Below, in pieces: positions 49,628-49,679 of a stretch of DNA of 64,000 bases. Source of the DNA: Azoarcus sp. GTDB lineage: Bacteria > Pseudomonadota > Gammaproteobacteria > Burkholderiales > Rhodocyclaceae. A program made the position numbers and the translations under genes. Below the pieces are notes generated by a model, which did no database searches, was not told where the DNA came from, and was given only the letters and a program-made list of their open reading frames with translations. The DNA is taken from assembly GCA_030604735.1 (NCBI GenBank), contig JAUVVG010000004.1, positions 62,001-126,000 on the forward strand, written 5' to 3'. The first letter of the stretch is position 1; every line of letters starts with the position of its first letter.

Positions 49628-49679
49628 ATGTCGGGCTTGCATCCCTCGATTTCGCAATCGACGCTTGCAAGCCCGACAT
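49628..49679 (-). ncRNA. Structured leader element of nqr mRNA (14-bp stem, GNRA-capped)
   Basis: ATGTCGGGCTTGCA (49628-49641) and TGCAAGCCCGACAT (49666-49679) pair perfectly. After a four-by-four internal loop, TCGATT and AATCGA pair again. On the nqr strand the apical loop is GCGA, a GNRA tetraloop; on the other strand it would be TCGC. It starts 46 bases before the nqrA ATG and lies inside the predicted transcript. Function (attenuation, stability, ligand sensing) unknown. A protein operator is an alternative. Confidence 0.72.

Follow-up and report, generated by a model that had tools for sequence, protein, structure and literature searches.

Two leader motifs have been described for nqrA, nqrA (Marinomonas) and nqrA-II, the second of which occurs in Pasteurellaceae and comprises four stem-loops with many conserved nucleotides (PMC11109978); nqrA-II is also mentioned in the Rfam 15 paper. 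Stem-loops in the 5′ UTR that stabilize mRNA have been characterized for ompA in E. coli, recA in Acinetobacter, and vacA in Helicobacter (PMC7509114), and UTP-sensitive transcription starts are known from E. coli carAB P1, which begins with GUUUGC and responds by slippage, as well as from codBA and upp (PMC6245113).

The nqr leader studied here shares features with each of these systems. Like nqrA (Marinomonas) and nqrA-II, it appears to be a structured RNA that covaries and lies directly before nqrA, but it differs from nqrA-II in having one hairpin with a free interior, in the bacterial family that carries it, and in lacking an Rfam match. As in the ompA, recA, and vacA leaders, a hairpin lies near the predicted 5′ end and precedes the start codon, and the loop sequence seems unimportant; unlike them, about 10 predicted unpaired 5′ nt precede the helix. 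Its predicted start, a G-UUU tract at a distance of seven bases from the −10 element, recalls carAB P1, codBA, and upp in sequence, although the nqr tract is common to petA promoters as well. No description of this element was found in the literature searched (open-licence papers). We conclude that this is probably a structured mRNA leader, distinct from the described motifs in its host, its structure, and its lack of conserved nucleotides.

A 52-nt Hairpin Directly Upstream of nqrA

The hairpin lies in the leader of the nqr operon, which opens with nqrA (48220..49581, minus strand, ATG at 49581), a gene whose product carries NQRA_N, NQRA_2nd, and NQRA_SLBB domains (Pfam). A NUDIX gene (49929–50384, plus strand) is divergent from nqrA, and the leader lies on the minus strand within the 347-nt intergenic stretch 49582–49928, its hairpin directly upstream of nqrA as in the nqrA-II and nqrA (Marinomonas) motifs (Table 1).

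Table 1. Features of the nqr leader, in 5′ to 3′ order on the nqr strand
Feature	Position	Strand	Basis
Predicted −35 element, TTGATG	49733..49738	−	Promoter scan
Predicted −10 element, TAAAAT	49710..49715	−	Promoter scan
Predicted transcript 5′ end, GUUUUGUUGU, GUUU(U)G start	49694..49703	−	Inferred, with +1 = 49703
Basal helix, 5′ arm, ACCGGUGC	49686..49693	−	Covariation in clade A
Second helix, 5′ arm, CCUGU, pairs with GCGGG	49681..49685	−	RNAfold, this genome only
52-nt hairpin: 14-bp stem, 4 × 4 internal loop, 6-bp stem	49628..49679	−	Sequence and folding
GCGA (GNRA) loop	49652..49655	−	Sequence
Second helix, 3′ arm, GCGGG	49621..49625	−	RNAfold, this genome only
Basal helix, 3′ arm, GUGCCGGU	49608..49615	−	Covariation in clade A
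3′ block including the ribosome-binding region, ...CAACCAGGAUCGAGACCUCU	49582..49607	−	Near-invariant in clade A alignments

A sequence-only reading of the window (the whole 64-kb stretch of DNA that was analyzed) had proposed this hairpin, its predicted promoter, and its distance from nqrA, and on inspection each of these stands. Read along the minus strand (49679..49628), the hairpin consists of ATGTCGGGCTTGCA (49679–49666), AGCG, TCGATT, GCGA (49655–49652), AATCGA, GGGA, and TGCAAGCCCGACAT (49641–49628), exactly the stems and loops that had been claimed. The gap to the nqrA ATG is exactly 46 nt (49582–49627), and TTGATG-17-TAAAAT, upstream of the hairpin, is the sole promoter-like match in a scan of 49560–49940. 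Relatives have TAGAAT, TAAAAT, or TATAAT at a distance equal to that of the −10 TAAAAT; TTTGATG or TTTGATC is also present in leaders L004, L122, and L123, and TTTGAAG in L005.

Folding of this region is exceptionally stable in this genome. When RNAfold was run on 49628–49679 (plus strand folded), the z-score was −5.2 and 0/200 shuffles were equally good; on the sense strand, z reached −5.5 against shuffles for the 115-nt leader and −8.6 for the 70-nt part within the basal helix. The 52-nt hairpin is also the longest perfect inverted repeat (spacer of at most 60 nt) in the window. Shorter ones that are likewise perfect, 12–13 bp in length, occur at 21819–21848, 651–719, and 1880–1905. The cap is a GNRA loop on the nqr strand only, the opposite strand giving UCGC, as had been noted; by chance, one of two strands would show a GNRA loop with a probability of about 1/16, so that the cap by itself is weak evidence. 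The outer, basal helix falls outside the boundaries given by the sequence-only reading and is the conserved part of the structure, with two U.G pairs in this genome. No Rfam family matched the leader even at E 10, chance hits aside, and none of the nqrA Rfam families matched up to E 10 (Rfam 15, for which inclusion of each nqrA model was not separately confirmed).

A long, near-perfect palindrome could have arrived as a mobile REP- or MITE-like insertion in the leader. However, the palindrome is single copy in this genome, exact copies of the 14-mer occur at the two hairpin arms only, and the length of the interior equals that of most relatives, which means that nothing was added. We find such an origin scarcely credible.

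Hairpin Sequence and Position in Relatives

Among family genomes nqrA is patchily distributed (57/299), and nqrA leaders were gathered from these genomes and from public contigs. The closest set, clade A, comprises the leader of this genome together with L004, L005, L119, L120, L121, and L123, with L122 and L041 more divergent. Clade-A leaders agree in their promoter, in a start rich in U (mostly GTTTTG), and in a 3′ block that ends in CAACCAGGATCGAGACCTCT-ATG with few changes. The basal arms are ACCGGTGC/GTGCCGGT in this genome, GCCGGCC/GGTCGGC in L005, GCCGACC/GGTCGGC in L120, L121, and L123, CGCCGA/TCGGCG in L004, and GCCGCTCC/GGAACGGC in L119. The helix that they form lies 16 nt after the −10 element in most clade-A members and 24–26 nt before the AUG in seven leaders (this genome, L004, L005, L119, L120, L121, and L123), and it encloses an interior of 67–77 nt in 7/9 clade-A leaders (37 nt in L119 and 58 nt in L041).

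Within these flanks the sequence is not kept. Comparison of clade-A interiors revealed shared sequence in a single pair, L120 and L121 (97%), and no conserved nucleotides were found inside the hairpin, even within the genus, conservation being confined to the flanks. The nqrA gene of the congener A. taiwanensis is 88% identical to nqrA here, but the 52-nt stem was not found in that genome, in which only the nqrA-proximal end of the query has a match; the A. taiwanensis leader has at the same place a strong but unrelated hairpin (z = −2.6). Across 398 other family genomes the 52-nt hairpin had no match save three marginal partial ones (E ~0.006–0.009). Homologous leaders that lack the stem would, in the sequence-only reading, count against it; by this test the 52-nt stem itself fails, but a hairpin at its position does not. 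On the sequences compared, we take the 52-nt sequence and its GNRA cap to be confined to this genome, and relatives appear to keep a hairpin at the same place.

One interpretation of this turnover is that the 52-nt hairpin is functionless, having arisen by chance or drift in a loosely constrained interior, with a coincidental GNRA cap and with only the flanks of any consequence. Its absence from the congener and from the 398 other family genomes (marginal partial matches aside) is consistent with this, as are the interiors of five other clade-A leaders, which fold no better than shuffles, and the chance of about 1/16 for the cap. On the other hand, an interior z of −8.6 would be hard to reach by drift alone, and the congener too has a strong, unrelated hairpin there. 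We consider a functionless hairpin somewhat unlikely.

The conserved leader is specific to nqrA. In a covariance search, the clade-A leader model matched 9/399 family genomes, with one copy in each; matches adjoin nqrA in the eight genomes in which nqrA was located, and the ninth (G373) scores the same as the nqrA leader L041. The model does not recognize the leaders of group B, which are from more distant family members (best score 18.7, L095), and the kinship of A and B therefore rests on architecture, not on sequence. Two further nqr leader groups (L125–L136 and L140–L163) have hairpins of their own and conserved 3′ blocks unlike that of clade A.

Covariation of the Basal Helix

Pairing energies, pair counts, and base-pair probabilities support the basal helix well, and do so more strongly for group B than for clade A; this base is the only part of the hairpin that is kept. 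With short segments from nonredundant leader sets, the pairing energy of native basal segments was better than that of segments taken from different leaders (P = 0.014 for clade A, 0.0001 for group B, and 0.08 for B2), and in the combined set of 25 leaders 0/50,000 permutations did as well. Control segments in the combined set gave nothing (upstream P = 0.61, promoter P = 0.20); in group B alone the upstream control also gave P = 0.02, and clade A without the sequence of this genome reached P = 0.08 only. Pairing in group C is suggestive (P = 0.016), with segments that overlap by 5 nt.

Alignments and predicted pairing show the same helix. In the trimmed clade-A alignment, 83.9% of cells are paired and four pairs have changed on both sides, although the misregistered L122 row contributes some spurious pair types; covariation was as high in 0/500 shuffles and dropped sharply when the helix was slid. 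The group B helix is 84.4% paired, with a covariation score reached by 0/500 shuffles and an ordinary count of pairs changed on both sides (98/500 shuffles). For these pair counts and for the pairing-energy test, basal arms and registers were partly picked by eye, a bias that leans toward structure. G.U changes are frequent in the helices of both groups, as expected for an RNA on the nqr strand. Pairs that enclose the leader center have base-pair probabilities above those of dinucleotide shuffles in the 25 leaders taken together (P = 2.7e-5), in each group B leader individually, and clearly in 4/8 clade-A leaders. L122 and L041 lack a helix in the register of the others, and support from group B2 is weak.

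Two further measures, whose outcomes weigh against the structural reading, were dropped. Whole-leader z-scores were not significant as a family test, folding energy being not significantly lower than in the upstream control (P = 0.09). Sense versus antisense folding proved group-dependent and confounded by base composition as a test of strand; when seven other clade-A leaders were compared, the better fold came from the antisense strand in each.

The Transcription Start Tract

The predicted transcript begins as carAB-type starts do, with a start nucleotide and a run of at least three U, 7–8 bases after the −10 element. With −10 elements picked without bias for U-tracts, TTT stands at a distance of exactly 7 nt downstream of the −10 in 32/47 nqr leaders versus 15/263 background sites. 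As a control we examined petA (Rieske protein, Pfam; loci L199–L228), where the same tract is found in 18/24 relatives, and the U-tract start was rejected as an nqr-specific signal. In this genome TANAATN6GTTT has seven sites (L179–L185) versus one for the reversed pattern; the sites that were inspected sit a short way before the starts of ORFs, among them a glmU-like gene, tusA, and petA (Rieske). The tract TATAAT-N6-GTTT(T) is kept at nqr and petA promoters of the host's order (nqr leaders L119–L171).

Control of initiation by UTP would rely on slippage of RNA polymerase at the GUUU(U)G start, like that at carAB, and would leave the hairpin a secondary role; it agrees with the conserved start tract of nqr leaders, with the A. 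taiwanensis start GATTTTTTC, and with the GUUUGC start of the UTP-sensitive carAB P1 (PMC6245113). However, the tract is also conserved at petA promoters (18/24 exact) and before other housekeeping genes and so may be a general promoter trait, and we think control by UTP improbable here. The GUUU(U) start reads as a wider promoter trait, and we do not claim it as a function of the nqr leader.

Candidate Functions of the nqr Leader

We propose, with moderate confidence, that nqr mRNA carries in its 5′ UTR a structural hairpin that acts as a folded block, and that the 52-nt hairpin is its lineage-specific outer part. Many nqr leaders of the family have a hairpin between a 5′-GUUU(U)G start and the stretch that contains the ribosome-binding site. 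Such a block would fix the geometry of the 5′ region and may affect how long the mRNA lasts or how readily ribosomes reach it, with no specific ligand bound; in this genome, its interior would have become an unusually stable GNRA-capped stem. The sequence-only reading had argued for an RNA function from strand-specific GNRA capping. A role at the RNA level is supported by the covariation of the basal helix and its fixed position, but capping alone is weak evidence for it. Of the specific roles that had been suggested, ligand sensing is not supported, as the hairpin interior holds no conserved nucleotide, not even among members of the genus, and neither is attenuation, as no terminator-like site was found. 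Because the hairpin has no conserved nucleotides and the leader no terminator, the evidence points to a structural leader element that would act on stability or translation rather than to a ligand sensor or an attenuator.

A ligand-sensing leader or riboswitch related to Na+, flavin, or quinone would form a third class beside nqrA (Marinomonas) and nqrA-II. That nqr leaders elsewhere carry riboswitch candidates (PMC11109978), and that the helix here lies between a conserved 5′ start and a conserved 3′ block, would suit such a class. Yet without conserved nucleotides inside the hairpin no ligand pocket is seen, Rfam gave no match to E 10 beyond chance hits, there is no terminator, and the ribosome-binding site is not consistently sequestered, all of which makes a riboswitch quite improbable. 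Sequestration by the 5′ end (GGGGUUUU with GAGACCUC, in one long fold) was inconsistent between relatives. Masking of the translation start is likewise disfavored, predicted accessibility varying without pattern.

Transcription attenuation in the leader could make use of the basal 3′ arm and the UUUCUU that follows it (49607–49602), a terminator-like tail that among clade-A leaders is seen in this genome only. The scan of 49560–49940 found no terminator-like site, however, and relatives have ACCCGAC in place of the U-run, so that we regard attenuation as very improbable.

For the structural element that we favor, RNA stability is a possible role. The conserved helix of the predicted leader hairpin lies near the predicted mRNA 5′ end, as in mRNA-stabilizing stem-loops. 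A classical 5′-terminal protecting stem of the ompA type fits poorly with about 10 unpaired 5′ nt. Since that many are predicted to precede the basal helix here, an ompA-like mode is uncertain.

Implications for Control of the Sodium Pump

A bolder combination would have nqr leaders of this betaproteobacterial family join a UTP-sensitive slippage start to a hairpin with a conserved base and a free interior, tying the sodium pump and cytochrome bc1 to the nucleotide pool. We hold this to be a long shot; if true, the shared start tract would also link cytochrome bc1 synthesis to the nucleotide pool. More generally, the locus counsels caution, as a single striking but unconserved hairpin is no proof of function. 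Retention of the basal helix while the interior turns over completely suggests selection on shape and position. Control of Na+-NQR synthesis is little known outside a few model species, and the structural leader proposed here would be a simple and testable element of it.
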